Source: Bacteroidia bacterium
GTDB taxonomy: Bacteria; Bacteroidota; Bacteroidia; NS11-12g; UBA9320
NCBI GenBank assembly: GCA_018402155.1
Contig: JAGYJG010000001.1
Location: 354,831-418,830, forward strand
Direction of reading: 5' to 3'
DNA: 64,000 bases
The position numbers and the translations under genes are program-made. The notes beneath the pieces are model-generated. The model saw nothing but the letters and a program-made list of their open reading frames with translations, did no database searches and had not been told where the DNA came from. Positions 29,879 through 50,553 of the stretch are shown piece by piece; positions within the stretch are counted from its first letter, which is position 1; the number at the start of each line of letters is the position of its first letter.

Positions 29879-31768
29879 TTAGAATCTGCGTCTGCGTTTA
29901 GCGCCGTGGCTACCTCCTGGCCGGCTACTTCCACCACCTCTATGCTCTCGCCCACCGCCACTTTTTGGGCTCCGCTCGCGGGTACCTCTATCTCTGCTAT
30001 CGCTTCTGTCTCTGCTATCGCTGCTTCTTCTTTCTCCACGGTCTGCAATGGTGCCGCCTGTTTTTGGTGAGCTTTCCTCTATACTTACCTCTCTTCCATT
30101 ATGCTCCATATTCTTAGATGCGCGTTGCAAATCTTCGGTGTAGCCTTTTTCCATTTCAAAGAACGAGAACATTTTCATAATTTCAATCTGGCCTATTTCG
30201 GGTGATTTGCCTTCCATATGAGAGTTTATCATGCCCATTAATATCTTTGGATTGAAACCGTCTTTTTTTCCTTGATTTATGAAGTAGCGTGTCATGTTTG
30301 CAGCTGTTTTGTGCTCTTTTCGCTCTCTTCTATCTCCACTATCTCCTCGGTCTCTTCTGTCTCCTCGGTCTCTTCTATCTCCTCGGTCGTCATCCCTCTG
30401 GGCATCCTTTTCTCTATTTCTGTCACGCTCGCGCTTGTCAGAGGTTTTATTTAAATCTGGCGCGTCTCGGTAGTATTCTAAAAAGCGATTAAACTCTGTT
30501 GAAACTATTTTCTTGATAACCTCCTCTTTACTCATTTCCTCAAATTTTGCATAAATCTGTGGAAGGAAGCTATCAATATGACTATTGGCTATTTCCGTTT
30601 CTTTGATGTTGTCTATGAGGTTAAAAAGCTGTTTCTCGCATATTTCTTGTCCTCCGGGTATATCAACGCGTTCAAATTTTCTACCAATTTTTTTCTCAAG
30701 GTATCTTAGGCGTTTTTCTTCGTTTCCTGTGAGTAGAGAGATAGAGTAGCCCTCGTTTCCAGCTCTTCCTGTTCTACCACTTCGGTGCACATAAACAGCA
30801 TCTTCGTCTGGTAGTTTAAAATTGATAACGTGGGTCAGTTCGTTTACATCTAAACCGCGAGCTGCCACATCGGTAGCCACTAGCAGTTGTAGTGCACGGT
30901 TACGAAATTTACCCATAACATAGTCCCGTTGGGCTTGAGATAAATCGCCGTGTAGTGCGTCGGTGTTGTATCCATCCTCTGCCAAGCGTTCTGCTACTTC
31001 CTTTGTTTCCGCTCTAGTTCTACAAAAAATAATACCATATATATCTGGAGATATATCCACTGCTCTTTTTAGTGCAGGGTAGCGGTCTCTATTGTTTATT
31101 TTATAGTATTGGTGGGTTACGCTGGTATTGGCCTCTTGCTTACTACCTGCGGTTATCTCAGCTGGGTTGTTCATATACTTTTTACTTAGCTTTACCATGT
31201 CTGGTGGCATAGTAGCAGAGAAAAGTAGTGTTTGTTTTTCAGCAGGAGTATTGGCTAAAATAGCATCTAAGTCTTCGGCAAAACCCATACTCAACATCTC
31301 GTCGGCCTCGTCTAATACTAGAAATTCAACGGTCTCAAGGTTTAGTCGGTTACGCTTTATTAGGTCTAGAGTACGGCCAGGTGTTCCCACCACAATATCG
31401 CATCCATTTTCTATCTTTTTAATTTGGCTGCTTATATCAGCTCCGCCGTATACAGCTACAACCTTTAGACCAGACATATTTTTACTGTAGCTTTTTATGT
31501 CTTCAGTTATTTGTAAACCCAGCTCTCGTGTAGGACTGAGTATAATGCATTTCACTCCTTTTTTGCTGGTGTCTATTTGGTTTAGGATAGGCAGACCAAA
31601 AGCAGCTGTTTTTCCTGTGCCGGTTTGGGCAAATGCTATTAGGTCCTGTTTCGATTCTAAAATCTTTGGTAGGGCTAGTTCTTGAATTCTGGTTGGATGT
31701 TCATAACCCAATTCTTCTATGGCGCTCAAAATCTCAGATTTTAAACCCATCTCTTTAAATGTACTCAT
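29879..31768 (-). CDS. DEAD-box RNA helicase with basic RGG/RD-rich tails
   Basis: The 629-residue helicase carries the Q motif (HPTRIQELALP), Walker A AQTGTGKTAAFGLP, PTRELGLQ, DEAD, SAT, and motif VI HRSGRTGRAG. After the RecA domains comes a low-complexity GDRRDRG repeat (~450-480). A DbpA-like RNA-binding domain follows (~490-560), then an Arg/Ser/Gly tail ending GAKRRRRF. This is the DeaD/CsdA type, which remodels structured RNA in ribosome assembly and cold adaptation. A TACCTTTG -7 box ~100 bases upstream implies a long leader, common in cold-shock helicases. Confidence 0.93.
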   Translation of the reverse strand: MSTFKEMGLKSEILSAIEELGYEHPTRIQELALPKILESKQDLIAFAQTGTGKTAAFGLPILNQIDTSKKGVKCIILSPTRELGLQITEDIKSYSKNMSGLKVVAVYGGADISSQIKKIENGCDIVVGTPGRTLDLIKRNRLNLETVEFLVLDEADEMLSMGFAEDLDAILANTPAEKQTLLFSATMPPDMVKLSKKYMNNPAEITAGSKQEANTSVTHQYYKINNRDRYPALKRAVDISPDIYGIIFCRTRAETKEVAERLAEDGYNTDALHGDLSQAQRDYVMGKFRNRALQLLVATDVAARGLDVNELTHVINFKLPDEDAVYVHRSGRTGRAGNEGYSISLLTGNEEKRLRYLEKKIGRKFERVDIPGGQEICEKQLFNLIDNIKETEIANSHIDSFLPQIYAKFEEMSKEEVIKKIVSTEFNRFLEYYRDAPDLNKTSDKRERDRNREKDAQRDDDRGDRRDRGDRRDRGDSGDRRERKEHKTAANMTRYFINQGKKDGFNPKILMGMINSHMEGKSPEIGQIEIMKMFSFFEMEKGYTEDLQRASKNMEHNGREVSIEESSPKTGGTIADRGERRSSDSRDRSDSRDRGTRERSPKSGGGREHRGGGSSRPGGSHGAKRRRRF

Positions 31769-31868: not shown

Positions 31869-31876
31869 CAAAGGTA
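31869..31876 (-). promoter_or_regulatory. Candidate -7 box of the DEAD-box helicase gene
   Basis: On the minus strand this reads TACCTTTG, a full TAnnTTTG match, 100 bases upstream of the ATG at 31768. Confidence 0.45.
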
Positions 31877-31971
31877 ACAATAAAGTCGACTGCTGATGTT
31901 TTTGTTTTTTTTTAAATTTAAAAACTTACACTCAATTAACAAGTGCGACACCACTTAGTTGGTGAAGGTGT

Positions 31972-32023
31972 ATAAGAAACAAAAGGTATCTGGGGCATGC
32001 CCCAGATACCTTTTGTTTCTTAT
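31972..32023. repeat. 52-bp perfect palindrome with no loop
   Basis: Two 26-base arms are exact reverse complements meeting at GCATGC (centre TGGGGCATGCCCCA, outer arms ATAAGAAAC and GTTTCTTAT). It sits between two divergent genes, where no transcription terminator is needed, 128 bases before the integrase. Each half ends in T-rich sequence, so as RNA it would look like a bidirectional terminator. Insulation of the integrase, protein binding or a cruciform are all possible. Confidence 0.9.
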
Positions 32024-32071
32024 TTTACATTTTCTTTCCTCCAAGTAAGTATATTTTAATACGAAAGTACG

Positions 32072-32102
32072 TTATTCGTTCCGAACCGTTTAGAACGAAT
32101 AA
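32072..32102. promoter_or_regulatory. Operator-like inverted repeat upstream of the integrase
   Basis: TTATTCGTTC and GAACGAATAA are perfect 10-bp arms separated by 11 bases, so the half-site centres are two helical turns apart. It lies 49 bases before the integrase ATG. This is a good shape for a dimeric repressor site. The protein is unknown; whether it is an SOS (LexA) site cannot be judged from one copy. Confidence 0.55.
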
Positions 32103-32151
32103 AGCGCAAACTCTTCTACTATCTCCCCTGTTTTTTGTTCATATTAGCTCT

Positions 32152-33270
32152 ATGATATCTGCAACTTCAAGACAAAGCACTACTAACCAAAAGATTACCA
32201 TCTACAAACCACTGCCCAAAAGCAAGCGAATAAAGTTACACATACCGTATCAGATGAAACTAGAACGAGAAGCCTTTAAACAGCTCAACACTTCATTTTA
32301 CCACCCTACTCAAAAGCTATGGAGTATTGTGAATACGGAGGAGAATAAAGAAGAGGTGAGAAAGCTATTTAAAGGCAAATTGGTAGTCAAGGACACAGAT
32401 ACCACGCCTGCCCAACCTAAGGTATTGCTATCAGAAAAAAGCCAAAACGAGCTAGATAAAAATTACCAAAAACTGGTGCTAAAAGGGCTAAGCACAAATA
32501 CTATAAATACCTACCAAGGAAACTTGGTGCAGTTTTTCTCCTACTTTGAAAATGCTGATTTGCACAATGTTACCAAAGATCAGATCGAAGGCTTTGTGTA
32601 TACCTTGGTAAGTAAATATAAAATAAGTGAGCAAAAGCAAAACAGTGTAATAAATGCCATAAAGAGCTATTACGAGCATACACTAGGCAAGCCGCGAGAA
32701 TATTATAATATAACACGACCCAAAAAGAGTAAAGACTTGCCTAACGTACTAAGCAAGGAAGAAGTGAAAGCCATTATAAACTCGCCACAAAACATAAAAC
32801 ACAAGGCTATACTGTACACCATATATAGCGGGGGATTGCGGCTAGGCGAACTGATTCGGCTGCGGGTAACGGATATACGCAGCGACGAAGGATTTATTTT
32901 TATAAAAGACAGTAAAGGCAAGCGGGATAGACACACCGTTTTAAGTCCTAGCTTGCTGATAATACTCCGGCAATACTACAAATCACATAAACCCAGTTAC
33001 TGGTTATTCGAAGGACAGGATGGCGGGCAGTATTCTGCCACCAGTATACAATCCATATTTCGAAAATCGGTAAAGGACACGAAATCAAATCCTTGGAGCA
33101 CGCCACACACATTGAGGCATAGCTTTGCTACGCATCTATTACAAGCAGGGGTAAGCATGAGGCACATACAAAGTGCATTAGGACACAGTAGTAGCAAGAC
33201 AACAGAGGTATATACCCACGTAATGAATATTTCTAACAAAACCATAAAAAGTCCTTTGGATTTATTGTAA
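32152..33270 (+). CDS. XerC/D-like tyrosine recombinase, integrase of the cassette array
   Basis: A 372-residue protein. Residues ~15-78 are an extra N-terminal domain (TIYKPLPKSKRIKLHIPYQM, HPTQKLWSIV). Residues ~95-185 form the SAM-like core-binding domain, and ~195-372 the catalytic domain with Arg230 (SGGLRLGEL), Lys255/Lys257, His319-Arg322 (HTLRHSFATHLL), His345 (LGHSS) and nucleophile Tyr354 (VYTHV). The full catalytic set is intact. Between the Lys and HxxR regions it has only a short linker, so the ~16-residue patch that defines integron IntI is not visible. The end KTIKSPLDLL is, from memory, typical of a common Bacteroidota integrase group. It lies directly upstream of and in the same orientation as the attC-like array, and is the only recombinase in the window. 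Confidence 0.9.
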   Translation: MISATSRQSTTNQKITIYKPLPKSKRIKLHIPYQMKLEREAFKQLNTSFYHPTQKLWSIVNTEENKEEVRKLFKGKLVVKDTDTTPAQPKVLLSEKSQNELDKNYQKLVLKGLSTNTINTYQGNLVQFFSYFENADLHNVTKDQIEGFVYTLVSKYKISEQKQNSVINAIKSYYEHTLGKPREYYNITRPKKSKDLPNVLSKEEVKAIINSPQNIKHKAILYTIYSGGLRLGELIRLRVTDIRSDEGFIFIKDSKGKRDRHTVLSPSLLIILRQYYKSHKPSYWLFEGQDGGQYSATSIQSIFRKSVKDTKSNPWSTPHTLRHSFATHLLQAGVSMRHIQSALGHSSSKTTEVYTHVMNISNKTIKSPLDLL

Positions 33271-33379
33271 GGTTTAGTTAATTTTGGGGGGTAATAGAAA
33301 TGATACGTATAACCAGTTCACAATGTTTCATCGTATACCTTTTTAATGAGACATGTTTTCTATAGTGTACATAGTGGAA

Positions 33380-33426
33380 ATATGCACAATAGGGTGTTTC
33401 TATTGCGCATATACTGATGTTGCAAG
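33380..33426 (+). other. attI-like hairpin site next to the integrase
   Basis: ATATGCACAATAG (33380-33392) pairs with CTATTGCGCATAT (33400-33412) with one mismatch, an A-C on top that becomes a T-G wobble on the bottom strand. It is followed by GATGTTGCAAG. The latter is nearly complementary to the left core CTTGCAACAAC of the first array site (33823-33833), the same start/end pairing seen in the true cassettes. No left core (AAC) precedes it, as in integron attI sites. Function is inferred. Confidence 0.5.
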
Positions 33427-33586
33427 ATATGTAGAGAGAAAAAAATGCGGTCTAATTCGTTGATTTTTTTAAAGTCATTTTAACAAAAAAACCAACACCA
33501 AATAACCACACCGAACGCCTTTAAAACGAAAAAAGTTCATAAAAAAACAACTGTTGCGAAAAAAGATTTGATTCTCTAAAACCAAA

Positions 33587-33780
33587 CAACGCCGAACTAA
33601 AAACAGACCCGAAAAGCCAGTCAACAACCTAATTGAAGAAAGCATTTTTGCGAAATTTAAGAAAGAAAAAAAGGAAAAAACCAACGCCGAACTAGTTAAA
33701 AGATTAGGGAGTTAGCTTGCAAAAGCAATACATAAAGTCGAGTATCATCCCGCATTTTTGCGGACTTAGAGAAAGATTAA
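33587..33780. repeat. Two diverged ~100-bp tandem units
   Basis: Units begin with the identical 13-mer CAACGCCGAACTA at 33587 and 33682 and share GCATTTTTGCG followed by a GAAAGAAAAA-type A-rich segment (33642 and 33752). The sequences between have diverged strongly. Confidence 0.5.
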
Positions 33781-33821
33781 AAAAAGAAAAAGCAGGGCGC
33801 AATCGTTGTGGATAAGACACA

Positions 33822-33956
33822 CCTTGCAACAACAGCTACACAAAATGCACGAGTAAAGTTTGTATTTTTTTGTGTATTTTTAGAGAATTAAAAGATTAAA
33901 GGTTTCTTTGCTGAGTGAGTGTTTGTGCACTTCGTGTAGCTGAGACCGTTGGTGAT
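33822..33956 (+). other. attC-like site A (5' boundary of cassette 1)
   Basis: Left core CTTGCAACAAC (to 33833), then CAGCTACAC and TGCAC. The right half has GTGCACTTCGTGTAGCTGAG and the core GTTGGTGATAACC (33948-33960). The arms pair over AGCTACAC and TGCAC across ~75 bases of spacer. Crossover is expected after the G of GTT. Confidence 0.65.
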
Positions 33957-33961
33957 AACCA

Positions 33962-34156
33962 AAAGAAAGAAAAGTAGGCGAGTTAGTGATTGCGAAAAAA
34001 GCAGTATATTAGCTGACCGAACCATTCGCTTGTAAACGAATGCAGCTTTTTCTGACAGTTAAAAACCAGCATTAAAAACTGCAAGAACTTAATCAACTCT
34101 AGCAGTGATTTTTAATGTTCCGCAGAAAACGGAACGGTTTAAACAAATTAGAAAAA
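33962..34156 (+). promoter_or_regulatory. Shared structured leader, copy 1
   Basis: This ~195-base leader is nearly identical to those of cassettes 2 and 3. It contains three stem-loops: CATTCG/CGAATG, CTGCAAG with a partly paired CTAGCAG, and GTTCCG/CGGAAC. The last contains an ATG that starts MFRRKRNGLNK, in this copy in frame with the main gene. No perfect TAnnTTTG box is seen; TATATTAG near its 5' part is the nearest. Confidence 0.7.
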
Positions 34157-36310
34157 ATGAAAAAAACAATTTTAAGAAAAATGGTGCTGCTAGTAGGGCT
34201 AGCATTGCTCGGATTTACAACGTATGGACAGGATGAAAATGATGGGGAGTCATATTTTGATTCCAGCAAACTATCTGGTAATGCACCTGCTTTAATGACG
34301 GAGTGTTACTCACAAGGGATAAAACAAAGTTTTGTATTACACTTCGCAGAAGAAAGTGCTCTTGTCCTCGATTTACACGAAACACCCGTTTATCCTATCA
34401 CAATTCAATCGTCTAGCGATATTATCCTAAGTAGTATATACTCTAAGAATAATGTAATTCCGTTACCCAAGTTCTCTAACTATAAGGTGAAATCATTTAA
34501 TAGCTGCGGTGACGAGGTCGTTTTATTAGATGTAAGTACTACTCCTGTAAGCATAGGAGGTTCTTTTGGGCTACCCCAGAAGCTATACGACCAGCTAGCG
34601 AAAAATAGCACTGACGGTCAAGATAGAACTATCCTTGATTATCTGAGTAGTAACGAAGTACTGAATAAAGTAGAAAAACTCTTTGTGCTCCAAAACTACT
34701 ATTTCGAAGGTGATTTAGCTTTAGCTAAACTACCAACAGATAATGATGATATTCCCACTGAGCATGGTGGAGGTCCCTTTGGTCATTTAGGTGACAGTAT
34801 TATATTGGGTGTAGAAGATGGGTTTGGCAGACTAGGAGATATTATAGGTGCAGTTGTATGGGCAGATCCTACCAGAAACTGCTTATGTAAGGCTACTTTT
34901 CCATACGCCCAAGGTGATCACTCTATAAAAGAACGTAAGCATTTGAGAAATCCAAGTGATCCAAATTCATTCAACTGGTTTGAGCACAAATATACGTGGG
35001 GCAAGCACTACTGGCCTTCTAGTACAGGAGACCATAAAGTGTGGTGGTGGAATGACTGGAACAAAGGCGCTATCCGTAATCATGAAGCTGACATTTATAT
35101 GAAGCGAGTAGGCTCTGATAAAGCAGGAAGTTGGAAAAGACCTGACGCTACAAATGCCGCTTCACCTTATCTGACACACTTAGAATACAACCTGAACTGT
35201 GAAAGTAAAGAATACCAAAAAGATGACTGCATGTGTGAAGATAGAGTATTATACGTAGGAGCTAATTATACTACTCAGATCAATGCAGGTGGAGGAAAAT
35301 TAAATTGTTTTGGATGTGGCAAAGGTTATGCGTGGCAAGCTAGCGGTGAAGATTGGGCTTTTCTAACTAAATCTTCGCAAAAAACGGGAATGGGCATTCT
35401 GGATGGAGGAAGGTTAAAAGTAGTTGCTTGGGATCAAGTATCACCTAATACCGATTGGGATAGGGCTTGGTTTGATTTAGCTAAAAACCTGCTAATTACC
35501 GCAGGAAAAGTAGCATTAGGTGACAGCACAGCGTGGGCAGATAGCGGGACTATCTCACGAGTAGTAGATAACGTGAAAACACTAGCAACATCTAGCCCCG
35601 TCGTCGGGGTTTCTGGGCGGGCAGCGAGTGCAAACGGTGCTCTAATATCTGGAGGTGCCGGAACAGCAGGCTACTCAGTAAACCTATTACCCAATGACCC
35701 TACTTGGATTACGATTCATTCTTTTGCCTCTCACTATCTCACTGGTCATACCAAATATGAAGCAGATGTGCGAATCAATAGTTATGATTGGCTAGCTGGG
35801 TTTCTAGACTATAAGAAGACGGACGAATGCTGCACAGAAGAATTTTTCAATTGGGTGGTTGGTGTAAATGATATTGCTCAAAATGAGTTAGCACTTAGAC
35901 AAGTCAATCAATTCATAAAATCTAAAAATCCAAGATTAACACCACAGTTTCCTAATCTAGTTGATCTAGAGTTTACTGGCCACAATGAATTTTGTCATCT
36001 CATACCTTTCAGCACAATTGGCCCAAAATACGAGGGCAATTTATGCCCACCAGAGTATTTTAGCAGTTTTGCACTGACTGCAGGAGGTAATACACCTGTA
36101 GATTCAGACATACTTCCTATCGGCACACAGTACCAAGTTGCAAATATGCTAGATGGTGTGGTGGCTGATCAAGGTAGCACCAACTATGAAATGACTCTGG
36201 GTAATCTAAAGAACCAAGTTTTACAGAATGGGGCTTTAAGGCACGGCTACTACTCTCTAATGATAACCGTAAACAATGAAGTTTACTATATTAAAATATT
36301 GAAACAATGA
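34157..36310 (+). CDS. T9SS-type surface protein of cassette 1
   Basis: The protein has 717 residues from MKKTILRKMVLLVGLALLGFTTYGQ, a signal peptide almost identical to those of cassettes 2 and 3. An in-frame ATG at 34115 (MFRRKRNGLNKLEK) lies in the leader hairpin and is not part of a signal peptide. Cys motifs NCLCKATF, DDCMCEDRVL and TDECCTEEFF correspond in order to KCICQYTL, EECLCSKKVD and INYCCSKKW of the cassette 3 protein, so the two are remote relatives. Otherwise the body matches nothing I know. The end GYYSLMITVNNEVYYIKILKQ is like the last strands of a sorting domain. It overlaps the lipoprotein gene by 4 bases (ATGA). Confidence 0.75.
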   Translation: MKKTILRKMVLLVGLALLGFTTYGQDENDGESYFDSSKLSGNAPALMTECYSQGIKQSFVLHFAEESALVLDLHETPVYPITIQSSSDIILSSIYSKNNVIPLPKFSNYKVKSFNSCGDEVVLLDVSTTPVSIGGSFGLPQKLYDQLAKNSTDGQDRTILDYLSSNEVLNKVEKLFVLQNYYFEGDLALAKLPTDNDDIPTEHGGGPFGHLGDSIILGVEDGFGRLGDIIGAVVWADPTRNCLCKATFPYAQGDHSIKERKHLRNPSDPNSFNWFEHKYTWGKHYWPSSTGDHKVWWWNDWNKGAIRNHEADIYMKRVGSDKAGSWKRPDATNAASPYLTHLEYNLNCESKEYQKDDCMCEDRVLYVGANYTTQINAGGGKLNCFGCGKGYAWQASGEDWAFLTKSSQKTGMGILDGGRLKVVAWDQVSPNTDWDRAWFDLAKNLLITAGKVALGDSTAWADSGTISRVVDNVKTLATSSPVVGVSGRAASANGALISGGAGTAGYSVNLLPNDPTWITIHSFASHYLTGHTKYEADVRINSYDWLAGFLDYKKTDECCTEEFFNWVVGVNDIAQNELALRQVNQFIKSKNPRLTPQFPNLVDLEFTGHNEFCHLIPFSTIGPKYEGNLCPPEYFSSFALTAGGNTPVDSDILPIGTQYQVANMLDGVVADQGSTNYEMTLGNLKNQVLQNGALRHGYYSLMITVNNEVYYIKILKQ

Positions 36311-36903
36311 GAAATACTATTTTTATAGCTACAATTTTCATCCTTGCAGGGTTATCGTCCTGCAAGGAAGAATGTAAAACCTGTCCAGATGGATATGGAT
36401 TAGTAAATGACGAATGCGAATGCTTAGGATATGTGAATGGCGGTCAATGTTATTCCTTAAATAATTTACTAAGATCAGACCCAAAATTCGAAGGTGATCT
36501 TTATTATAGTTTTGATGAAAACTCTTCGTCAAATTTTACTTTTTCTTCAAATCCTCAGCTTATTTCTATTTCTCCATGGATTGAGACAGGAGTTAATTCT
36601 GAGTCAGCTAAAATTCTACTTGTAGAAAACAGAGAAGCTAGTAATTTTAATAATGTTACTTTAATGACCACAGTCAAACGACCAAAAGGACAAGATTCTG
36701 CGTGGTTTGAACCTTTTTGGAATGAAAAAGGTTTTGGTCCAGGTAGCACTGCATTTGCAGAAACCAAAGTAATTAACGAGAAAACTTGCTATCTAAGGCC
36801 TTATCTAGTTCAACTGGATAGCCGCCTGTATCGTCTTCATCTGAAATGGGAAACTGAAGCAGGTGAGGTGGTGGATATTTGCACAAAAATATTCCGTAAA
36901 TAA
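36307..36903 (+). CDS. Cys-rich lipoprotein of cassette 1
   Basis: This lipoprotein of 198 residues has its lipid Cys at 19 (LSSC). An EGF-like Cys cluster follows: CKEECKTCPDGYGLVNDECE, then CLGYVNGGQC. The lipoprotein of cassette 3 begins in the same way (CKDDCEEPNTNCQG...DGNCQC), so both seem to belong to one family paired with the large surface protein. The start codon overlaps the upstream stop as ATGA, which implies coupled translation. A role as anchor, chaperone or immunity partner for the large protein is speculation. Confidence 0.75.
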   Translation: MRNTIFIATIFILAGLSSCKEECKTCPDGYGLVNDECECLGYVNGGQCYSLNNLLRSDPKFEGDLYYSFDENSSSNFTFSSNPQLISISPWIETGVNSESAKILLVENREASNFNNVTLMTTVKRPKGQDSAWFEPFWNEKGFGPGSTAFAETKVINEKTCYLRPYLVQLDSRLYRLHLKWETEAGEVVDICTKIFRK

Positions 36904-36910
36904 GATAGGC

Positions 36911-37015
36911 TAATCACCAACACTATGTATACGTAATGCCGCTTATGTACACGCTGTAGCAGGGCTTGTTCGCCGTGGCGAAGCGGCACTACGCATACAC
37001 TCACCGTTAGCGGTT
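36911..37015 (+). other. attC-like site B
   Basis: Left core ATCACCAAC, right core GTTAGCGGTT (37006-37015). The arms TGTATACGTAATGCCGCT (from 36926) and AGCGGCACTACGCATACA pair over 18 positions with two A-C mismatches on the top strand, both T-G wobbles on the bottom strand. The spacer holds a second hairpin (CGCCGTGGCG). Confidence 0.75.
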
Positions 37016-37020
37016 ATTCA

Positions 37021-37214
37021 AAAGAAAGAAAAGTAGGCGAGTTAGTGATTGCGAAAAAAGCAGTATATTAGCCGACCGAACCATTCGCTTGTAAACGAAT
37101 GCAGCTCTGGAATAAGGTTAAAACCCACATTGAAAAAACTGCAAGAACTTAATCAACACTTGTAGCAATTTTAATGTTCCGAAGAAAACGGAATGGTTTA
37201 ACAAATAAGACAGA
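37021..37214 (+). promoter_or_regulatory. Shared structured leader, copy 2
   Basis: It is about 90% identical to copies 1 and 3. Stems: CATTCG/CGAATG; CTGCAAG/CTTGTAG (G-U replaces a pair of copy 3); GTTCCG/CGGAAT (again G-U). The pairing is kept while the sequence changes, which favours a functional RNA. Confidence 0.7.
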
Positions 37215-37218
37215 ATGA
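37174..37218 (+). CDS. Possible leader peptide MFRRKRNGLTNKTE
   Basis: A 14-codon frame starts in the third leader hairpin and its TGA overlaps the ATG of the large gene (ATGA). The first nine residues are the same in all three leader copies, despite one synonymous change (CGC/CGA). It may be a translated, coupling leader peptide or just a by-product of hairpin conservation. Confidence 0.35.
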   Translation: MFRRKRNGLTNKTE

Positions 37219-40200
37219 AAAAAACAATTTTAACAAAAATGGTAATGCTAGTAGGACTAGTATTGCTGGGTTTTACAAGCTACAGTCAGGCTGATTGTCA
37301 GGTAATTGCAAATCCATTAACGGTCAATAATAGTAATGCAAGTATTGCTGCAACACCTATATGCGGTACTCACAAAGACTACATTCCTAGTAATACCAAT
37401 CCAGAATACACTCCAATAAAAACTATTAGGTTAGTACTGCATTCCTTTTGCGACGATAACGGGAATGGTAATTATAATGACATTCAAATTGACAACCCTT
37501 CTCACAATACACAGTCTCAATACTGGAACTCAATCATCAACGGCTTTAATAATAAATTTTCAGATTTTAAATTAGAAACTAGACAAGTGCCTAGTTTTCC
37601 TTCGCCTCTTTTAAGTGACAGTAGAGTGAGATTTCAACTGAATCAGTCTGATATATTTATTCATAAAAACACAGCTGATATGAATAAATTTGGTAGTACA
37701 TATTTTATCTACAACAAATACGTGAGCAATAATTCTTCAATGACATATAAAGATGACGCTCTACATATTTTTCTGATGGCAAATGGTAGTTACTCCTACT
37801 CGTCAATTGGGGCCAACTATGTAATGATAGGCAGCGATTTTATTGGGTACTTTGCAAATGGCGAAGTGTGGAATAGCACGAATAATATAGCACACGAAAT
37901 GGGTCATGCAATGGGCTTGTATCATACCAACCGCTTTAATACAACGCCACAAGGTACATCTAATAGTTGCTCAAGTACTTGGGATGATTATTGCGATGAT
38001 ACTCCCCCAGCAGGTACACTAAATCCATGTCCTTGTTGGAATGGTAATGCTGACGAATGGGGGCATAATGACCCCAACCCGTGCTCATATAATTTAATGG
38101 CTTACAACGCGAAACAATACTCGTTGACTAGAGAACAAATAGGCCGAATCCATTGGTTCTTAACCAATAATAGCACGTGCAGAAAGTATGTTATTGAAAA
38201 TTATTGTACTTACAATGCAACTAATTCAATATCTATCGGTAATTCATCACATTTGGTTTGGTCAAACACAAGATTTTTTGATGGAGACATTGTTATTGAA
38301 GCGAATTCTTCATTGACAATTAAGTGCTTTTTGGGAATGTCGAGTGGTTCAAAGATCATAGTAAACAAGGGGGGTAAACTAAATATTGATGGAGGGACGA
38401 TTGGCACTAAATGCGGCGGTCAATGGCAAGGCATCTACGTAGAAGGTGATAAAAGTTTATCTCAAGGTCCGGCAGGTAATCAAGGTTCTGTATTTATTCA
38501 GAATGGTGGAATAATAGAACACGCCAGAACAGGAGTTACTCTATGTGGATTAGATGCAAATGGTAATTTAGATCTCTCAAAAAGTGGAGGAAGAATAATT
38601 GCTAATGAGGCCATATTTCGAGATAACTTTAGAGATGTATCATTTACAGGCTACCATCATTTCCCTTCTAGTTCATCTTTCTCTACTGCAAATGTGTCAA
38701 GTTTTATTAAATGTGAGTTCATTACTACTAACAACTACAAAAGTGATTTTGTCTCAGATATATGGCCTAATGTCACTATGTGGGGAGTAGTTCATGTTCG
38801 CTTCAGAGGCTGCACTTGGCACGATCAAAGAGATGGGTCAGTGGATGCTAGAATGGATGACTATTTACAACGAAGAGTTGGAATGTTCACCATGGACGCT
38901 AGTTACATTATCACAGACTTATATTCTAGTCAGCCATTAGAGGGTAGCCCACCAAATGCCTTAACGAATTCTAGTTTCATCGATATGAGATATGGTATTG
39001 AATCAATAGACAATCCACTCTCAGGCAATAACTACACTGCTGGCAGACCCAGTACAGTCCAAGATGTACAGTTTGAGAACTGTCTTGGAGGTATTTATCA
39101 TAGTGGTGTAGAAGGAGCTTTACTCAGCAGAAATGAGTTCCAAATAAAGCCCTATGCAGTGCCTACTTTTAGAGATATAGAAGCTTACGGTATTTACTTG
39201 GACAATTGCAACGGATATCAAGCAGAAGGCAACAAGTTCTCATCTAACTGGGCTGTAGACCCTAGTAATAATCTCTCGGTTGGATTCATAACCACTGCAA
39301 ACGAAGATAGAAATAATGATATCTATAGAAATACTTTTGATGATAATCTGCTCGGTGCTGAAGCTATTGGTTGGAATCGTCACCAAGATGTTGGCAATCA
39401 TTGGACCGTTGGACTTAAATACCGATGCAATAGTTTTGCTAACATCAGTGATAATGATTTAGATATATGGGCCACCCACCATCAGACTATCCCATATACT
39501 GCAGCACAGACAGGTTTACCACAGCAAGGGGGTGGGTTAGATCCTATGGGAAATGTATTTGGAGTGTATGGCAGTACAGGTAACAGAAACTTCAACTACC
39601 TGCAAAACCCAAATACTTTTGTTCAATATTTTCACCATGATCCAGTTTCAGAGCCAAGAGTGGAGCCTGTTATCCACTTCGGAGTGAATAGCCATAATAC
39701 TGGGGTTGCATATTCAAATTCTCAATGCCCTGACAACACTGCAACAGGTTACTACGTAAATGGAACCAGCATAAGCAGCACAAATGCTCATATGAGCATG
39801 TTGATAGTAAAGACTGGTGAGCTGCGAGATCTTGTAGATGGAGGCAATACCGTAGATTTAGTTAATCAATTATTGGCAGTGACCCCAAGTACCGCAGTTG
39901 GTCTAGTGACAAATATGACGGACTATTCGCCCTACTTGTCAGATGAAGTGCTCTTATTACTCAGCACGAGTTACTCAGTTATTACTCACTCACAGATAAG
40001 GGATTTGCTGTTGCTGAATCCACATAGTGCTCGTAATCCGAATATAATAAATGCACTGCAAAACAGAACTGATAATTTTCCAACGGCATACATTGACTCT
40101 GTCATTGGGGTATCTAACATTTATACAGCTAGAGATTATCTCATGGATGAAGTGTATCACCATAGCAATGCCTACGATGCGGGAGTTAATAGTATACTGA

Positions 40201-40961
40201 TAAAAGCACTCAATGATAGTGTAGATAGATTTGAGGAGATTGTGGAGCCTCTTTTGCTAGCATCCAACAGACCGCAACACAAGTATCGTTTAGCCTCATT
40301 ATATGACAGTAGAGGTAATGCGTCTGACGCCAATTCTACTTTAGTATCTATACCTGTTATGCCTGATTTTGACCCAAGCCGTCTTGACTTTCACAATGAT
40401 TTATTGGCACTCCGAGCTACATTGAGTTCATGGAATCAAGCCAATGTGGATATTACCAATCTTGATGCTGCTCAGATTGCTCTACTTCAGACTTATGAGC
40501 AAAAATCAAATGGGATACAATATAAAGTAAAGCCGCTACTCAAACTTAATGAGGCATCCAGCTATATAGCACCTATCTATGCCCCAGATATGACACCTTC
40601 CAGTGCCCTTCGCACAAGTAAGAATGAGAATACTTCAAGTATCTCTGCTGAACGGTCAAATGATAGAATTAGACAAACTGAATCAATTGTATCAGGTGAG
40701 CACAAAGTCTTAGGATTAAAACTTTATCCCAATCCTGTACAGAAGCAACTTAATGTCGCCTACGAAATAGAAGGAGATATCCATACAGGATCTATTACAA
40801 TCTATACTTTACAGGGCAAACAAGTAAATACAGTGAAATTGACAGAAGCATCTGGCGTGGAGTTATTAGATGTGTCTGGCATTCGCAATGGACAGTATAT
40901 ATGCACCATAGAAGCGAACGGAGAAGTCTTGAAACGGCTTAAATTTACCATCACCCGCTAA
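37215..40961 (+). CDS. Secreted pappalysin-like (M43-type) metalloprotease with beta-helix region and T9SS domain
   Basis: A 1248-residue protein. The signal peptide MKKTILTKMVMLVGLVLLGFTSYSQ is shared with cassette 1. The metzincin zinc motif HEMGHAMGLYH begins at His227, and the Met-turn is in PCSYNLMAYNAK. Residues ~340-800 look like a right-handed beta-helix, with repeated GG-x-I-x-G and 'DNC/FENC' turns and segments such as GGTIGTKCGGQWQGIYVEG. The C-terminus is a T9SS type A sorting domain (LKLYPNPVQKQLNVAYEIEG ... GQYICTIEANGEVLKRLKFT). Probable role: a surface or released protease acting on large substrates (inference). The next gene overlaps as TAATG. Confidence 0.85.
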   Translation: MKKTILTKMVMLVGLVLLGFTSYSQADCQVIANPLTVNNSNASIAATPICGTHKDYIPSNTNPEYTPIKTIRLVLHSFCDDNGNGNYNDIQIDNPSHNTQSQYWNSIINGFNNKFSDFKLETRQVPSFPSPLLSDSRVRFQLNQSDIFIHKNTADMNKFGSTYFIYNKYVSNNSSMTYKDDALHIFLMANGSYSYSSIGANYVMIGSDFIGYFANGEVWNSTNNIAHEMGHAMGLYHTNRFNTTPQGTSNSCSSTWDDYCDDTPPAGTLNPCPCWNGNADEWGHNDPNPCSYNLMAYNAKQYSLTREQIGRIHWFLTNNSTCRKYVIENYCTYNATNSISIGNSSHLVWSNTRFFDGDIVIEANSSLTIKCFLGMSSGSKIIVNKGGKLNIDGGTIGTKCGGQWQGIYVEGDKSLSQGPAGNQGSVFIQNGGIIEHARTGVTLCGLDANGNLDLSKSGGRIIANEAIFRDNFRDVSFTGYHHFPSSSSFSTANVSSFIKCEFITTNNYKSDFVSDIWPNVTMWGVVHVRFRGCTWHDQRDGSVDARMDDYLQRRVGMFTMDASYIITDLYSSQPLEGSPPNALTNSSFIDMRYGIESIDNPLSGNNYTAGRPSTVQDVQFENCLGGIYHSGVEGALLSRNEFQIKPYAVPTFRDIEAYGIYLDNCNGYQAEGNKFSSNWAVDPSNNLSVGFITTANEDRNNDIYRNTFDDNLLGAEAIGWNRHQDVGNHWTVGLKYRCNSFANISDNDLDIWATHHQTIPYTAAQTGLPQQGGGLDPMGNVFGVYGSTGNRNFNYLQNPNTFVQYFHHDPVSEPRVEPVIHFGVNSHNTGVAYSNSQCPDNTATGYYVNGTSISSTNAHMSMLIVKTGELRDLVDGGNTVDLVNQLLAVTPSTAVGLVTNMTDYSPYLSDEVLLLLSTSYSVITHSQIRDLLLLNPHSARNPNIINALQNRTDNFPTAYIDSVIGVSNIYTARDYLMDEVYHHSNAYDAGVNSILIKALNDSVDRFEEIVEPLLLASNRPQHKYRLASLYDSRGNASDANSTLVSIPVMPDFDPSRLDFHNDLLALRATLSSWNQANVDITNLDAAQIALLQTYEQKSNGIQYKVKPLLKLNEASSYIAPIYAPDMTPSSALRTSKNENTSSISAERSNDRIRQTESIVSGEHKVLGLKLYPNPVQKQLNVAYEIEGDIHTGSITIYTLQGKQVNTVKLTEASGVELLDVSGIRNGQYICTIEANGEVLKRLKFTITR

Positions 40962-42571
40962 TGAGAAGTCTAATAACAATAATGTACTTACTGAGCATCT
41001 GCCTTCTGGCAGATGCTCAGCAGGTATATACGTATGTGCTCACAGATGGGTGGCAGGCTACAAAGGCTTTTGACTATGGTGATGACACCTGTGTCATAGT
41101 AGGATTGGTCTCAGACCCAAACCCGAGTACAAAACATCGTTTTCATTTTACGACTATCGATGGTGAAAATGAAATATTAAAAGTAGATACCTTCAAATTG
41201 CCCAAAAGTGAGTATGTGTCTTACAATTATCCATTTGGGGTTTCAAAGTCTGAAAATTCTATAATAATTGCAGGTACAAGAGACTCTACTGGTGGTAAAC
41301 CGAAAAGTACAACATATAGTGTAGATAAAGATAAGGGAATTTCAAAGGTTTTTGATGAGTCTATAGGCTACGTAAGTTTACTTGCTGCCTCTTATTACAA
41401 AGGAGAGAACAATACGAGGATTTCTTTTGGTTCGTATTTAGATAGTAGCAGAGAAAATACATATCAGTCTCATTTGAATATAAATAATAACAATAGACAA
41501 GTTATTAAGACTTTTCACAACAAAAATCTGCTATCTGAATACGGCCCTACAAATACATACGCAAAACAATTAATTCCAACAAAAGACTTAGGGTTTTTAC
41601 TCGTAAATCAGATCAAACCTAGAGATCATCCATTTGTAGACATCCACCAAGGTCTCATCATAAAAGTGGATAGCCTCGGCCAGGAGCAGTGGCGACTACC
41701 TATATGGGAAGATAGTACTACGGTGTATGATCTACAAGCAGCACCTCTTGCAAACGGGAATTTTTTGGCTATGTATCAAGATTTTTATTATCAACCTGAT
41801 AAACCGCCGGGTAATACCAACAAATTTTATCCTGCTGGTAATCTTCGATATCAACCTTGGTTTGTAGAATTTAATGAGGAGGGACAAATCGTAAGCAAGT
41901 GGAATATACGAAAGGAATTAGAGAAAAAAAGGGGGGTGCAAGATGCTTATAACGCTCGATTTAGTCATTATTTGGTTGAAGAAGATGGTAGTATATTATG
42001 TGTAGGATCTTCTCGTGATAATGGCAAGTACGGTTATGACGTAGGCTTTTTACTCAAACTAGACAAGAATGGCCAATATCTTTGGTATAGACAGTATGAA
42101 CTATCTATAGCTGCACCTTACAATGGAGGAAAAGAAAATATATACATCTACGGTATCACTGCTCTGAAAAATGGCGGGTATGCCCTTGCCGGCGAATACC
42201 GCAGTGATCCGAGTGATAGTTTTCCGAATGGTACGCAGCGAGGGTTGGCACTTTTTGTAGATAGCTTTGGTTGTATGGAGCCTGGCTGTCAGAAGAATGA
42301 TAATATAAGTGTAAATGAACTACGGGCAGATAAGGCATTATTCTCAGTATATCCTAATCCGAGTAGTCGTAGCATACAAATCTCCAGTGCACATAACCAA
42401 CTTCCTGAAAAAGTAGAAGTATATGATATGCAAGGCAGAGCCGTAGATTATACCCTAAGCAACTCACTAACAAATAACGAAATATCGATTGACTGCCATT
42501 CAGGTATTTACTATCTGAAAATATACCGTGACGACGGATTCTATGAAACACATAAAATAATTATACAATGA
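40961..42571 (+). CDS. T9SS-sorted secreted protein, beta-propeller-like
   Basis: This 536-residue protein has a signal peptide MRSLITIMYLLSICLLADAQ. It contains repeated blade-like units (GFLLVNQIKP.., LANGNFLAMYQD, DGSILCVGSSRDNG, KNGGYALAGEYR), like delta-60/beta-propeller repeats common in Bacteroidota exoproteins. The sorting domain is ALFSVYPNPSSRSIQISS to IYYLKIYRDDGFYETHKIIIQ. It shares one base with the metalloprotease stop and four bases with the next start, so the three genes are a coupled operon inside one cassette. Ligand and function unknown. Confidence 0.75.
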   Translation: MRSLITIMYLLSICLLADAQQVYTYVLTDGWQATKAFDYGDDTCVIVGLVSDPNPSTKHRFHFTTIDGENEILKVDTFKLPKSEYVSYNYPFGVSKSENSIIIAGTRDSTGGKPKSTTYSVDKDKGISKVFDESIGYVSLLAASYYKGENNTRISFGSYLDSSRENTYQSHLNINNNNRQVIKTFHNKNLLSEYGPTNTYAKQLIPTKDLGFLLVNQIKPRDHPFVDIHQGLIIKVDSLGQEQWRLPIWEDSTTVYDLQAAPLANGNFLAMYQDFYYQPDKPPGNTNKFYPAGNLRYQPWFVEFNEEGQIVSKWNIRKELEKKRGVQDAYNARFSHYLVEEDGSILCVGSSRDNGKYGYDVGFLLKLDKNGQYLWYRQYELSIAAPYNGGKENIYIYGITALKNGGYALAGEYRSDPSDSFPNGTQRGLALFVDSFGCMEPGCQKNDNISVNELRADKALFSVYPNPSSRSIQISSAHNQLPEKVEVYDMQGRAVDYTLSNSLTNNEISIDCHSGIYYLKIYRDDGFYETHKIIIQ

Positions 42572-43425
42572 GAAAACTATATACATTTCTGATACTGTTA
42601 ATATCCATAGCGACAAATGCTCAGTATTTCGGTAATGAAATCTGTTTCCTAGAGAAACATATAAGTGCTCAGTCAAATACACTCTCTGGGAACGTAGTTC
42701 GTTTAAAATATCTAAATTCTACGGGTATTGATAAAAAATATAGCTTCAAATCAGACACGATTATAGAAAGGAATGATTCCATTTTTATACAAAAAAATAC
42801 AATTCCTCAAGGAATAAGCACGACTTTTTTGTACTCACCATATATAAAAGATTTAGATAGCTTCATTATTCAATATACGTATCTCAACAACGAGGTTGAG
42901 ACCATCACTTTTTATATTGATTCAGTAACTTCAAATGGCATTTCTGAAATCACACACTTTCACAACAAACCAACTCAAAATGGATATATAGAATATTTTT
43001 CTTGGCGAGATAGTCTTGGTGATTTAAACTATGGACCAAATTTTTTAGATGTATTTAATTGGATTGATTATAGTATCGAATACTTAGCATATTCAAAAAA
43101 TAATGAGATCTATTTCATGGATGGACAGCCTTGGGAAACTGAAGGAGACACAAGCTGCGAGTTTAATCAAAGTCTTAAGACGTTGAGTATCAAAGAACCG
43201 ACCTTACAAAGCTTGGTCTTATATCCCAATCCAAGCTGTGGCTACATCAATTTAAATTTAAATGCATCTACGGGGTACAGTATTTATAATTCTAAGGGTA
43301 TTCTGGTTATGCAAGGATCTTATAATAGCCAAATTGACATTTCTGGTTTAAAGACAGGCATTTATTATATAGAAATATTGGGTATTGAAGGAAATGTAAG
43401 ACGAGGTAGATTCATCAAAGAATAA
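42568..43425 (+). CDS. T9SS-sorted hypothetical protein, third gene of cassette 2
   Basis: A 285-residue protein: signal peptide (MRKLYTFLILLISIATNAQ), ~180 residues of unrecognised beta-rich sequence, and a T9SS type A domain (LVLYPNPSCGYINLNLNAS to GIYYIEILGIEGNVRRGRFI). It overlaps the previous gene by ATGA. It ends 10 bases before the attC-like site, the tight spacing usual for integron cassettes. Confidence 0.72.
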   Translation: MRKLYTFLILLISIATNAQYFGNEICFLEKHISAQSNTLSGNVVRLKYLNSTGIDKKYSFKSDTIIERNDSIFIQKNTIPQGISTTFLYSPYIKDLDSFIIQYTYLNNEVETITFYIDSVTSNGISEITHFHNKPTQNGYIEYFSWRDSLGDLNYGPNFLDVFNWIDYSIEYLAYSKNNEIYFMDGQPWETEGDTSCEFNQSLKTLSIKEPTLQSLVLYPNPSCGYINLNLNASTGYSIYNSKGILVMQGSYNSQIDISGLKTGIYYIEILGIEGNVRRGRFIKE

Positions 43426-43432
43426 CAAAGGC

Positions 43433-43520
43433 TAATCACCAACACATGTATATACAGAATGCCAAGCCCACCCACAAGCTACCGCACATTTGGCACTTCG
43501 CATATACCCACGTTGGTGAT
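43433..43520 (+). other. attC-like site C
   Basis: Left core ATCACCAAC (43435-43443), right core GTTGGTGATAACC (from 43512). Arms 43447-43464 and 43491-43508 pair with three A-C positions that become T-G wobbles on the bottom strand, against one G-T on the top. Confidence 0.75.
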
Positions 43521-43525
43521 AACCT

Positions 43526-43720
43526 AAAGAAAGAAAAGTAGGCGAGTTAGTGATTGCGAAAAAAGCAGTATATTAGTCGACCGAACCATTCGCTTGTAAA
43601 CGAATGCAGCTCTGGACTAAAGGTTAAAACCAGCATTGAAAAACTGCAAGAACTTCATCAACCCTTGCAGCAATTTTAATGTTCCGAAGAAAACGGAACG
43701 GTTTAAACAAATAAGACAAA
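43526..43720 (+). promoter_or_regulatory. Shared structured leader, copy 3
   Basis: The same layout as copies 1 and 2, with fully paired stems CATTCG/CGAATG, CTGCAA/TTGCAG and GTTCCG/CGGAAC. The small frame in the last stem (43679-43714) reads MFRRKRNGLNK and stops six bases before the main ATG. Confidence 0.7.
43679..43714 (+). CDS. Possible leader peptide MFRRKRNGLNK
   Basis: An 11-codon frame in the third hairpin of leader copy 3, matching the peptide of copies 1 and 2 over the first nine residues. Whether it is translated is unknown. Confidence 0.3.
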   Translation: MFRRKRNGLNK

Positions 43721-45985
43721 ATGAAAAAAACAATTTTAACAAAAATGATGCTGCTACTTGTAGTAGTTGCATTTAGCACAGCCAGTATGGCTCAAACCGA
43801 CAGTTTAGCTAGTCTCTTCTATCAAAATGTTCAAACTTCTAACAACGTCTTACGTTTTGAAAATGACGCACTTGCATCCGTAAGATTTACAAGCGGTAGC
43901 TTAACTGACAACTTCCAATACTACCTGAAAGACGAAAATGGGTTAATCGTCTCCCCTAAACAAACGAATAATGCTTGGAACGAAGTTTTATTCGAGAATC
44001 TGCACCTTGATACAGATTATTCTATTCACACTAGTTTTCAAGGCCAAGAATATCTAGTAGGCTATTTTCATACCAGAGATAACTCTCTTGAACCCTTTGA
44101 AGCATCTGAAACCCTATTTAACGCCCTAGAAGATTGGTATGAAATCCCTCAGGCAACAAGACCAGAAGCAGGTGAGTACCTTATTGCCCAACCGTCTATT
44201 CCGTTTTTTGAGAGTATTGCCTATCTGCAAGCATTGTATGATATGCCTCATCTGCCAAATTCTCTTTTAGAAGAAAATTCTGTATCAAACATTATTGATA
44301 TTTGGGTAGACTATGGAGACCCAAATGATAGTATCCCTACACCTCCAGATTTAGGAGATGAAGTTTATGAAGCAACACTCAACTTCAAACCTCTCGACCC
44401 AGCTACCATAGACAAGTGCATTTGTCAGTATACGTTGAAAACTAGACCAACAAAGGATGCTAAAACAAGTTATATTGATAAAGACTACAACTACTACATC
44501 ACTCAAAAACCACGACGCTACTTCCAACTGGGTAATTGGTTTCCTAACTCAAACACTAATACGTACGAGTACATAGAAAATGGTTTTGCTGGCCCAGCAA
44601 AGCACGTAGAATACGAGCTTAATGGCTATCGAACTGGACAAACAATAAGCGGGGACGACGGATTTTTAAGTTCAGACCCTAGCTTAACCACAGCAGACCA
44701 CTATGCTGGCATAGAAATGCTTCTCTTCTGTGAAGGTCTTCCTCAAAAGATTTTGAATCGCCTAGTGTTAGTTTATCCTTCTGATGAAGAGCCCGATTTC
44801 GACTTTCTTACTCCTACTCCTGCCGAAGAATGCCTATGCTCGAAAAAAGTGGATCTTTGCTGGCGGTATGATGCAGAAATCTTTGTCGAAGCTAAAGAAA
44901 ATAGCTGCGGTGGGTTAAGGGATAACAAAGGAGCACTCACCGTGCAGGACTATATAGAGGTGACTCTCCAGCAAGGTAGCGGCTCGACTGAACTCCTACG
45001 CTCTAATAATGCATCTATTCTAGCCAAGTGTAACGCCAATAGATTAGAAAAAACGGTAAAACAAACCGAGCTTATAGCTAAAAATGCAGAAATTATAGCT
45101 AAAAATGCCGAGATAGCCGCTGTGCAGACTGAACTTGATAGTGAACGTGCAAAAAGCCCACAAGACCCTGTAAAGATTGCTGAACTTGAAGCAAAGTTGG
45201 CAACTAAGCTAGCAGAACTTCAGGCGAAACAGTCAGAACTATTAGGTAAGATTAAAGAAGTAGATGATGTAGAAATTGATTGTTCCTCCTCCACATCGAG
45301 AAACAATCTTACTGAAGAGTGCAGACAAATCACCTTAAAAAGCAATGAAACTACCATTTTTAGAATGAATAATGGTTATAAGATTACTGCTGAGGGGAAA
45401 AACTGTTTTGTAGCCAGAGCAGACATAAAAAGTGATTTTTATCTTACTGCTATTATGCAGCAGCCCAACCTCACACCTAATGATATAAACTACTGTTGCT
45501 CTAAGAAATGGGGCAGGTATTTCTTAGGTTCTTTTGCTGGTGCTCCTTTGTCTTTAGTTCAAGCCAAACAAGAAGTAGGTTCTCGATTTGATTTTGCTGG
45601 TAGTTGGGATGCTCCGTATAACAATCTTTCCACCAACCCTACTATGGTTTACGATATGGATGTGCTCATCGGTGGGCAGAATTGTGATGATGTTATCTTT
45701 AACAACACACGAGTTGAACAAAAACGTAACACCTATTTTAATGACGTAGATGCAAGAATTATCGGTTTAGATAAGATAGCTATCTCACAAATACCAACCA
45801 CTGAAGAACAAACAGTAAACACTCAAGTAGTTATAACGGATATGACAGGAAAAGTAATAGCTAACACCAACACCTTTAATTCTCAAATAACCATAGAAAA
45901 CTTGCCTCTTAGAAAAGGAGTGTACTTTGTATCACTCATAGCGGGCAATAATTTCAAAACCTTTAAAATTTTAAATTATGAATAA
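43721..45985 (+). CDS. T9SS-sorted surface protein of cassette 3 with coiled-coil segment
   Basis: The product has 754 residues. Signal peptide MKKTILTKMMLLLVVVAFST, ending SMAQ, starts like cassettes 1 and 2 and then diverges. The CxC/CC motifs KCICQYTL, EECLCSKKVD and INYCCSKKW correspond to those of the cassette 1 protein. Residues ~445-520 are a strongly helical, heptad-like stretch (LIAKNAEIIAKNAEIAAVQ repeated, then AELEAKLATKLAELQAKQSE), a likely coiled coil or stalk. The C-terminal T9SS domain has the adhesin-like ITDMTGKVIANT and RKGVYFVSLIAGNNFKTFKI. It overlaps the lipoprotein gene by 8 bases. Function unknown; a surface adhesin or effector is possible. Confidence 0.75.
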   Translation: MKKTILTKMMLLLVVVAFSTASMAQTDSLASLFYQNVQTSNNVLRFENDALASVRFTSGSLTDNFQYYLKDENGLIVSPKQTNNAWNEVLFENLHLDTDYSIHTSFQGQEYLVGYFHTRDNSLEPFEASETLFNALEDWYEIPQATRPEAGEYLIAQPSIPFFESIAYLQALYDMPHLPNSLLEENSVSNIIDIWVDYGDPNDSIPTPPDLGDEVYEATLNFKPLDPATIDKCICQYTLKTRPTKDAKTSYIDKDYNYYITQKPRRYFQLGNWFPNSNTNTYEYIENGFAGPAKHVEYELNGYRTGQTISGDDGFLSSDPSLTTADHYAGIEMLLFCEGLPQKILNRLVLVYPSDEEPDFDFLTPTPAEECLCSKKVDLCWRYDAEIFVEAKENSCGGLRDNKGALTVQDYIEVTLQQGSGSTELLRSNNASILAKCNANRLEKTVKQTELIAKNAEIIAKNAEIAAVQTELDSERAKSPQDPVKIAELEAKLATKLAELQAKQSELLGKIKEVDDVEIDCSSSTSRNNLTEECRQITLKSNETTIFRMNNGYKITAEGKNCFVARADIKSDFYLTAIMQQPNLTPNDINYCCSKKWGRYFLGSFAGAPLSLVQAKQEVGSRFDFAGSWDAPYNNLSTNPTMVYDMDVLIGGQNCDDVIFNNTRVEQKRNTYFNDVDARIIGLDKIAISQIPTTEEQTVNTQVVITDMTGKVIANTNTFNSQITIENLPLRKGVYFVSLIAGNNFKTFKILNYE

Positions 45986-46580
45986 GCAATTAATTTTAGC
46001 AATAATAGTAGGTGCTTTTATTTTTATAATAGGCTGCAAAGACGATTGTGAAGAACCCAATACCAACTGTCAAGGGATGTATGTTTTCAGGGATGGTAAC
46101 TGCCAATGCCCTGAAAACAGTGTGGATATGGGTAGGTATGTGTGTAAAGAATACTCAGAAAACAATTTTTGGATACAAGAAGGTGACCCTTGCCTTGGGC
46201 AGGCTTACATCTTTTTTGGTAATACAGGTAAGGACATTTTTGACCAAAACCAGCAAACCATTGATATGTCTTGGAGTATTGGAGAAGAAAGCGGTGGTAT
46301 TGGAGGCAGTTATGAAAAGATTGATAAGATTGGTAATCAGTACTATCTAATCTATAGCAGTCACAACACTATACAGCACGATTTGAATGAATTTAAAGAG
46401 TGTGTAGGCGAAGAATATGGATTTTATGACCTAGAACTTAAAATTGATTTAGACTGGTCTACTGCTGATGTGACTTATAAATTTTGGAACGATTCCGACA
46501 CCTCTATTCACGTAAAAAAAGAATGGGGGCCGGAATTTAAAGCGGTTTACAAAAGCAATACAGGCCCAAAAGAAAGATAG
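45978..46580 (+). CDS. Cys-rich lipoprotein of cassette 3
   Basis: A 200-residue lipoprotein (lipid Cys20, IIGC) with the N-terminal Cys cluster CKDDCEEPNTNCQG, DGNCQCPENSVDMGRYVC, similar in spacing to that of the cassette 1 lipoprotein. The remaining ~140 residues (beta-rich, ending WGPEFKAVYKSNTGPKER) are not recognised. Translationally coupled to the T9SS protein by an 8-base overlap and ending just before the attC-like site. Confidence 0.73.
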   Translation: MNKQLILAIIVGAFIFIIGCKDDCEEPNTNCQGMYVFRDGNCQCPENSVDMGRYVCKEYSENNFWIQEGDPCLGQAYIFFGNTGKDIFDQNQQTIDMSWSIGEESGGIGGSYEKIDKIGNQYYLIYSSHNTIQHDLNEFKECVGEEYGFYDLELKIDLDWSTADVTYKFWNDSDTSIHVKKEWGPEFKAVYKSNTGPKER

Positions 46581-46581
46581 G

Positions 46582-46670
46582 CTATCACCAACACAAAATA
46601 AAACGCAATGCCGCTCCTGCCCACACGCCATACAAGGGCGGCACTACGCATACACTCACGTTACCCAACA
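46582..46670 (+). other. attC-like site D
   Basis: Left core TATCACCAAC, right core GTTACCCAAC (from 46660). The arms ACGCAATGCCGC and GCGGCACTACGCAT pair; in the inner arm all mismatches (A-C, C-A, A-C) become wobbles on the bottom strand. Confidence 0.75.
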
Positions 46671-47186: not shown

Positions 47187-47195
47187 TTATGACAA
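47112..47195 (+). other. attC-like site E (less regular)
   Basis: Left core GTTGGGTAAC (47114-47123) clearly matches the start of cassette 4. Right core GTTATGAC (47186-47193) is preceded by ACACAC, which pairs with GTGTAT on the left. The arms pair worse than in the other sites. Confidence 0.55.
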
Positions 47196-47245
47196 GACAA
47201 GTTGGTCAGTCGAAAAAATCCAATTATCAAAAGGAGAACTTATGA
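47189..47245 (+). CDS. 18-codon frame overlapping the cassette 5 gene
   Basis: MTRQVGQSKKSNYQKENL begins inside the site E core (GTTATG) and its TGA overlaps the next ATG as ATGA. It could be a leader for coupled translation, or the two frames could be the pieces of one frameshifted gene. Confidence 0.25.
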   Translation: MTRQVGQSKKSNYQKENL

Positions 47246-47415: not shown

Positions 47416-47419
47416 AAAA

Positions 47420-47557: not shown

Positions 47558-47585
47558 TTATAAAGAACAATTAAAACAATAGAAT

Positions 47586-49361: not shown

Positions 49362-49365
49362 AGCT

Positions 49366-49875: not shown

Positions 49876-49894
49876 TCAAGAAAAGATTTTTGCC

Positions 49895-50551: not shown

Positions 50552-50553
50552 AA

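Follow-up and report, generated by a model that had tools for sequence, protein, structure and literature searches.

A perfect 52-bp palindrome, probably a bidirectional terminator-type hairpin, at the apparent joint between an integrase block and a helicase promoter region in a Bacteroidia bacterium

Main

Intrinsic (Rho-independent) terminators combine a stable, G+C-rich hairpin with a T-rich tract downstream of it, and perfect stems can be created in one step by template switching during replication (PMC8794818). Here we present a perfect 52-bp palindrome from the genome of a Bacteroidia bacterium (GCA_018402155.1), located within a window of 64,000 nt, which is the whole stretch of DNA that was analysed (contig JAGYJG010000001.1, positions 354,831–418,830 of the forward strand). 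As in bidirectional intrinsic terminators, the element has a G+C-rich core, a tetraloop and a T-rich tract on both strands, each T-tract faced by an A-tract so that the whole is palindromic, and similar hairpins of the same genome sit past stop codons. Unlike those terminators, it is not placed at the end of an intact gene, it has the longest perfect arm in our sample and its T-tract is impure. We interpret it, with a probability of roughly 0.6, as a long bidirectional intrinsic-terminator-type hairpin placed on the junction between the integrase block and the helicase promoter, inside the truncated 5′ end of a zinc-ribbon gene. The palindrome and the two genes that flank it are as follows.

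29879..31768, minus strand: DEAD-box RNA helicase with a DbpA-type RNA-binding domain, the gene left of the palindrome
31972..32023, no strand: perfect 52-bp palindrome, defined by sequence and fold, between the helicase and tyrosine recombinase genes
32152..33270, plus strand: tyrosine recombinase adjoining a cassette array, the gene right of the palindrome

Structure of the palindrome

The two arms (31972–31997 and 31998–32023) comprise 26 bases each and are 100% complementary with a spacer of 0 nt; comparison of the arms, together with the identity of the flanking genes, confirms the earlier note's description of a loop-free palindrome between divergent helicase and integrase genes. Base composition predicts about 7e-11 such palindromes per 64 kb and about 3e-9 per genome, and the palindrome is real and far beyond chance. 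Whichever strand is transcribed, the RNA forms a 24-bp stem capped by a CAUG loop, with energies of −46.9 and −41.3 kcal/mol on the two strands (z about −10 on both). A T-rich tail (TTTTGTTTCTTATTTT) comes after the G+C core of the hairpin (GGTATCTGGGG/CCCCAGATACC) on each strand, so that the palindrome has both parts of an intrinsic terminator, and it ranked first among the terminator-like sites in a scan of 19 kb. No intact annotated gene ends at this point; the palindrome starts approximately 20 bp into a leftward gene stump that has a near-consensus promoter.

Outside the perfect palindrome, about 9 bp of further imperfect pairing can be formed if three bases are bulged. A longer inverted duplication in the flanks was not convincing: 20 of 2,000 shuffles equalled the nearest 25/35 nt, and nothing was found farther out. 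Chimeric reads can produce perfect inverted repeats, and a fold-back artefact of sequencing or assembly could in principle have done so here; such an artefact would mirror a much longer stretch than the 26 bases observed, which have unrelated sequence on each side within a 2.4-Mb contig, and we consider its probability close to negligible.

Distribution of the palindrome and of similar hairpins

The palindrome occurs once in its own 2.49-Mb genome, the search elsewhere in the genome that the earlier note had proposed having returned a single copy. No second copy of an arm was found within the window at up to three mismatches (shuffles likewise give 0), the 18 other genomes of the genus contain no copy, although 34 nt at its right edge match one of them (G002), and a search of plasmids, phages and viral contigs returned none. 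The palindrome is also absent upstream of the second integrase copy of its own genome and upstream of the relatives' integrases examined.

Several classes of element were considered for the palindrome. A REP/ERIC-type repeat was ruled out by the presence of one copy per genome. An integron attC or attI site was rejected because the palindrome has neither the boxes nor the bulge that the attC-like sites of the adjoining array both have. A regulator operator was rejected because the palindrome is single-copy and is neither conserved upstream of orthologous genes nor repeated at members of a regulon. In Rfam, it reaches the gathering score of no family; the weak matches, far below threshold, are to eukaryotic microRNA hairpins and were dismissed, since any perfect hairpin yields such matches.

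We surveyed 464 kb of the genome, including 20 sampled stretches of 20 kb, for perfect hairpins with arms of at least 11 and loops of at most 8, and found 19. Their arms, when ranked, measure 26 (the 52-bp palindrome, the longest), 25, 19, 18 and 16. The hairpin with an arm of 25 (loop of 5), at L175 12686–12740, is located 11 nt past a stop codon in the gap separating two convergent genes, and its architecture is like that of the palindrome. Divergent gaps account for 23% of the gaps by number and 27% by length, and none of the other intergenic hairpins (arms of at least 11) in the 464-kb sample lies in one. The shape of the palindrome is thus ordinary for this genome; its position is the odd part. 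Several copies placed after convergent operons, which the earlier note would have taken as the mark of a plain terminator-type repeat, were not found, although unrelated perfect hairpins of the same type do follow ordinary genes, convergent pairs included.

The integrase side and the zinc-ribbon stump

The region from 32185 to 33424 shares 98.95% identity with a second copy of the integrase elsewhere in this genome (G000:C1:1389844-1390953). The identity ends abruptly on both sides, at codon 12 and at 154 bp past the stop codon, and the first 11 codons and the upstream sequence differ. From the sequences, this pattern looks like gene conversion between two arrays, and the right end of the identity is a candidate attI junction. 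A third integrase fragment is present at C1:1950423. The integrase scores under the NCBIfam cut-offs for integron integrase.

The integrase is followed (33270–50950) by an integron-like cassette array in which genes for secreted proteins, several of them carrying a T9SS sorting tail, are set apart by attC-like hairpins. Three of the genes begin with similar signal peptides and are preceded by a 180-bp leader, repeated at 33962, 37021 and 43526. The attC-like sites at 36905–37020 and 43427–43530 have the boxes CACCAAC.../...GTTGGTG or CGCTAAC.../...GTTAGCG and imperfect stems with bulges; similar ends are found near 46577–46668, 49735–49880 and 50562, and the boxes differ from the canonical GTTRRRY. 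The palindrome resembles integron attC sites in its location next to a tyrosine recombinase to which a cassette array is attached, and differs from them in sharing no array boxes, in being free of bulges and in lying upstream of the integrase instead of in the array.

In 54 of 77 loci of the integrase family (a set that includes some duplicates), a divergent zinc-ribbon gene is located upstream, mostly 60–210 bp from the integrase start and normally at a distance of about 100 bp. In our window, the corresponding region contains the following features.

31955..32044, minus strand: zinc-ribbon gene stump, a TTG-started frame of 29 codons, LEERKCKIRNKRYLGHAPDTFCFLYTFTN followed by a stop, matching the family profile
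32062..32069, minus strand: −7 element TACTTTCG of the orphaned zinc-ribbon promoter, close to the consensus and directed towards the palindrome
32072..32102, no strand: inverted repeat TTATTCGTTCCGAAC/GTTTAGAACGAATAA, corresponding to a conserved motif that relatives have between zinc-ribbon gene and integrase

The stump frame begins LEERKCKI..., with the family-matching codons RKCKI at 32035–32021, after which it runs into the palindrome, which spans the stretch where the zinc-ribbon gene has its two Cys knuckles. Against the family profile, the stump beats 5,000 of 5,000 shuffles. Past the palindrome the likeness is no better than that of shuffles, and the remainder of the gene was not found in the window. 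The nearest DNA match to the stump is in G002 (85% over 32005–32038), adjoining or just upstream of that genome's own integrase (fragment); the best zinc-ribbon copy in the genome under study lies beside integrase copy 2, and there are two distant relatives. By profile and position, the palindrome lies in the remnant of a truncated divergent zinc-ribbon gene of which only the first codons are left. The orphaned −7 element has one mismatch to the consensus (relatives have TATATTTG or TATATTCG there), and the palindrome starts approximately 40 bp downstream of it.

A motif like TTATTCGTTCnTAACGGTTA (32050–32110) is conserved at many Bacteroidota loci in the interval that separates zinc-ribbon gene and integrase, and may be an operator, the core of a divergent promoter or a binding site of the recombinase; the inverted repeat at 32072..32102 is likewise a candidate operator or recombinase site. 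The palindrome itself lies approximately 130 bp upstream of the integrase start, where it could serve as a protein-binding site (an operator, or a recombinase or att-type site) that controls or delimits the integrase. We regard this as very improbable: the palindrome is a single copy missing upstream of the second integrase of its own genome and in all other relatives examined, the site conserved across the family is a different inverted repeat nearer the integrase gene, and the attC-like sites of the array have other boxes and imperfect stems. The proposal in the earlier note that the palindrome binds a protein accordingly found no support, given its one copy and its lack of conservation in relatives.

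The helicase side and the rearrangement joint

On the other side of the palindrome, the helicase promoter has a conserved element.

31869..31876, minus strand: −7 element TACCTTTG of the helicase promoter (of the Bacteroidota type TAnnTTTG), retained by 13 of 14 relatives from the genus

In flavobacteria, the main sigma factor is reported to have TAnnTTTG as its −7 box (PMC9723704). DNA homology to the helicase loci of relatives stops at about 31883, just upstream of this element, and nothing in the genus convincingly matches the filler from 31883 to 31971. The genes trmH, bamA, lysA, p53, lytG and trxB (p53 and lytG are working names) precede the helicase in most relatives of the genus. In the window, the trxB...trmH block is inverted relative to these genomes, with trxB at 50950 and trmH ending at 59146, and the integrase and its array separate the inverted block from the helicase. 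In tracing the other edge of the inversion, ahcY was found in one relative (G010) on a different contig from the helicase. An orphan protein (59170–60069) adjoins trmH and has no match among the 18 other genus genomes.

The palindrome therefore sits in a gap of approximately 140 bp between the helicase-side and the integrase-side homology (from about 31883 to about 32024–32044). The zinc-ribbon stump, the end of the helicase-side homology and the inverted trxB...trmH block together indicate that it marks the left joint of a rearrangement by which an integrase and cassette block appears to have been joined to the helicase promoter region. The earlier note had offered the palindrome as a possible marker of the mobile region's left edge; this holds for its position between the two ends of homology, and there is no evidence for it as a recombination signal.

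In three genus relatives (G001, G012 and G018), the stop codon of pyrG is directly followed by a hairpin, which lies approximately 190–236 bp upstream of this helicase; in two of them it is a perfect palindrome (46 bp in one, 34 bp in the other), and in the third it is interrupted. The pyrG hairpin (L151, L152 and L155) has been kept in three species despite several stem changes, as a natural conserved palindromic terminator. These hairpins are like the palindrome in being long, perfect or nearly so and about 200 bp upstream of the helicase, and unlike it in sequence and in following an intact co-directional gene; an upstream stop signal is thus a recurrent arrangement for this helicase. The palindrome might be the left-over terminator of a former helicase neighbour such as pyrG that the rearrangement carried in or left in place, the zinc-ribbon likeness inside it having arisen by chance. 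Relatives with such hairpins in the same place speak for this, whereas the pyrG hairpins differ from the palindrome in sequence, no such hairpin is present in relatives where the gap is short and the neighbour is the ancestral trmH, and the zinc-ribbon match extends ungapped from the flank into the right arm, all of which make a left-over terminator distinctly unlikely.

Function of the terminator-type hairpin

In the preferred reading as a bidirectional terminator, RNA polymerase moving leftward from the residual zinc-ribbon promoter, or arriving from either side, would make a stable hairpin and then a U-rich tract, and would stop. Leftward transcripts would thereby be kept from running into the helicase promoter, and transcription arriving from the left would be kept out of the integrase. 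Insulation against transcription from outside, which the earlier note had suggested, would be the likeliest role, and shielding of the helicase side from the orphaned leftward promoter may be the likelier direction. The lack of an intact annotated gene ending at the palindrome, the one mismatch of the orphaned promoter to the consensus and the very short transcript that the zinc-ribbon stump would give argue against a terminator. The long A/T-rich outer pairing of the palindrome can compete with the RNA–DNA hybrid of the U-tract, which means that termination efficiency cannot be inferred from the hairpin.

Origin of the palindrome

The frame that passes through the palindrome keeps the G and FC of the family motif KCxxC-x5-GRxDKxFC in register, and only 18 of 20,000 random palindromes score as well in this test, which was devised after the sequence had been seen. 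The retention of the motif in register suggests that the palindrome formed in place, perhaps by homogenization of a natural quasi-palindrome in which A-rich Lys codons face T-rich Phe codons. Replication template switching, which is known to homogenize quasi-palindromes in this way (PMC8794818), could have perfected the hairpin where it stood in such an A/T-rich quasi-palindrome of the dead gene. Like stems made by template switching (PMC8794818), the palindrome is a perfect inverted copy with no run of compensatory single changes, and it lies in a decayed gene; unlike them, it has no direct ancestor at hand that would prove the event. We tentatively propose, as a scenario that is on balance unlikely, that a terminator was born at the rearrangement joint, template switching having turned the 5′ coding sequence of the truncated gene into a perfect bidirectional terminator that silenced the orphaned promoter in one mutational step.

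The main rival to the terminator reading is a functionless scar, that is, a fold-back or template-switch product of the joining of the integrase block to the helicase region that has no transcriptional role and survives because it is young and, at 52 bp, tolerably short. Its placement in the gap between homologous flanks, its absence from every relative, the register with the KCxxC-G-FC motif and the one-step formation of perfect stems are all consistent with a scar. Against this, a random fold-back need not have produced a G+C core and T-rich tails that match the other terminator hairpins of the genome, and the register test is post hoc; a scar is a real, though minority, possibility.

Discussion

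The interpretation offered in the earlier note is partly supported as a whole. The palindrome looks like an ordinary kind of element in an informative position, and not like a new mobile-element signal. A terminator-like palindrome between divergent genes is explained if a divergent gene reading into this spot once existed, as its surviving stump indicates, and the case shows how a terminator-like hairpin can come to occupy a divergent gap. The left joint of the integron-like block is at the same time narrowed to approximately 140 bp. If the passage from coding sequence to hairpin were proven, the palindrome would provide a clean bacterial case of the birth of a terminator in one step.
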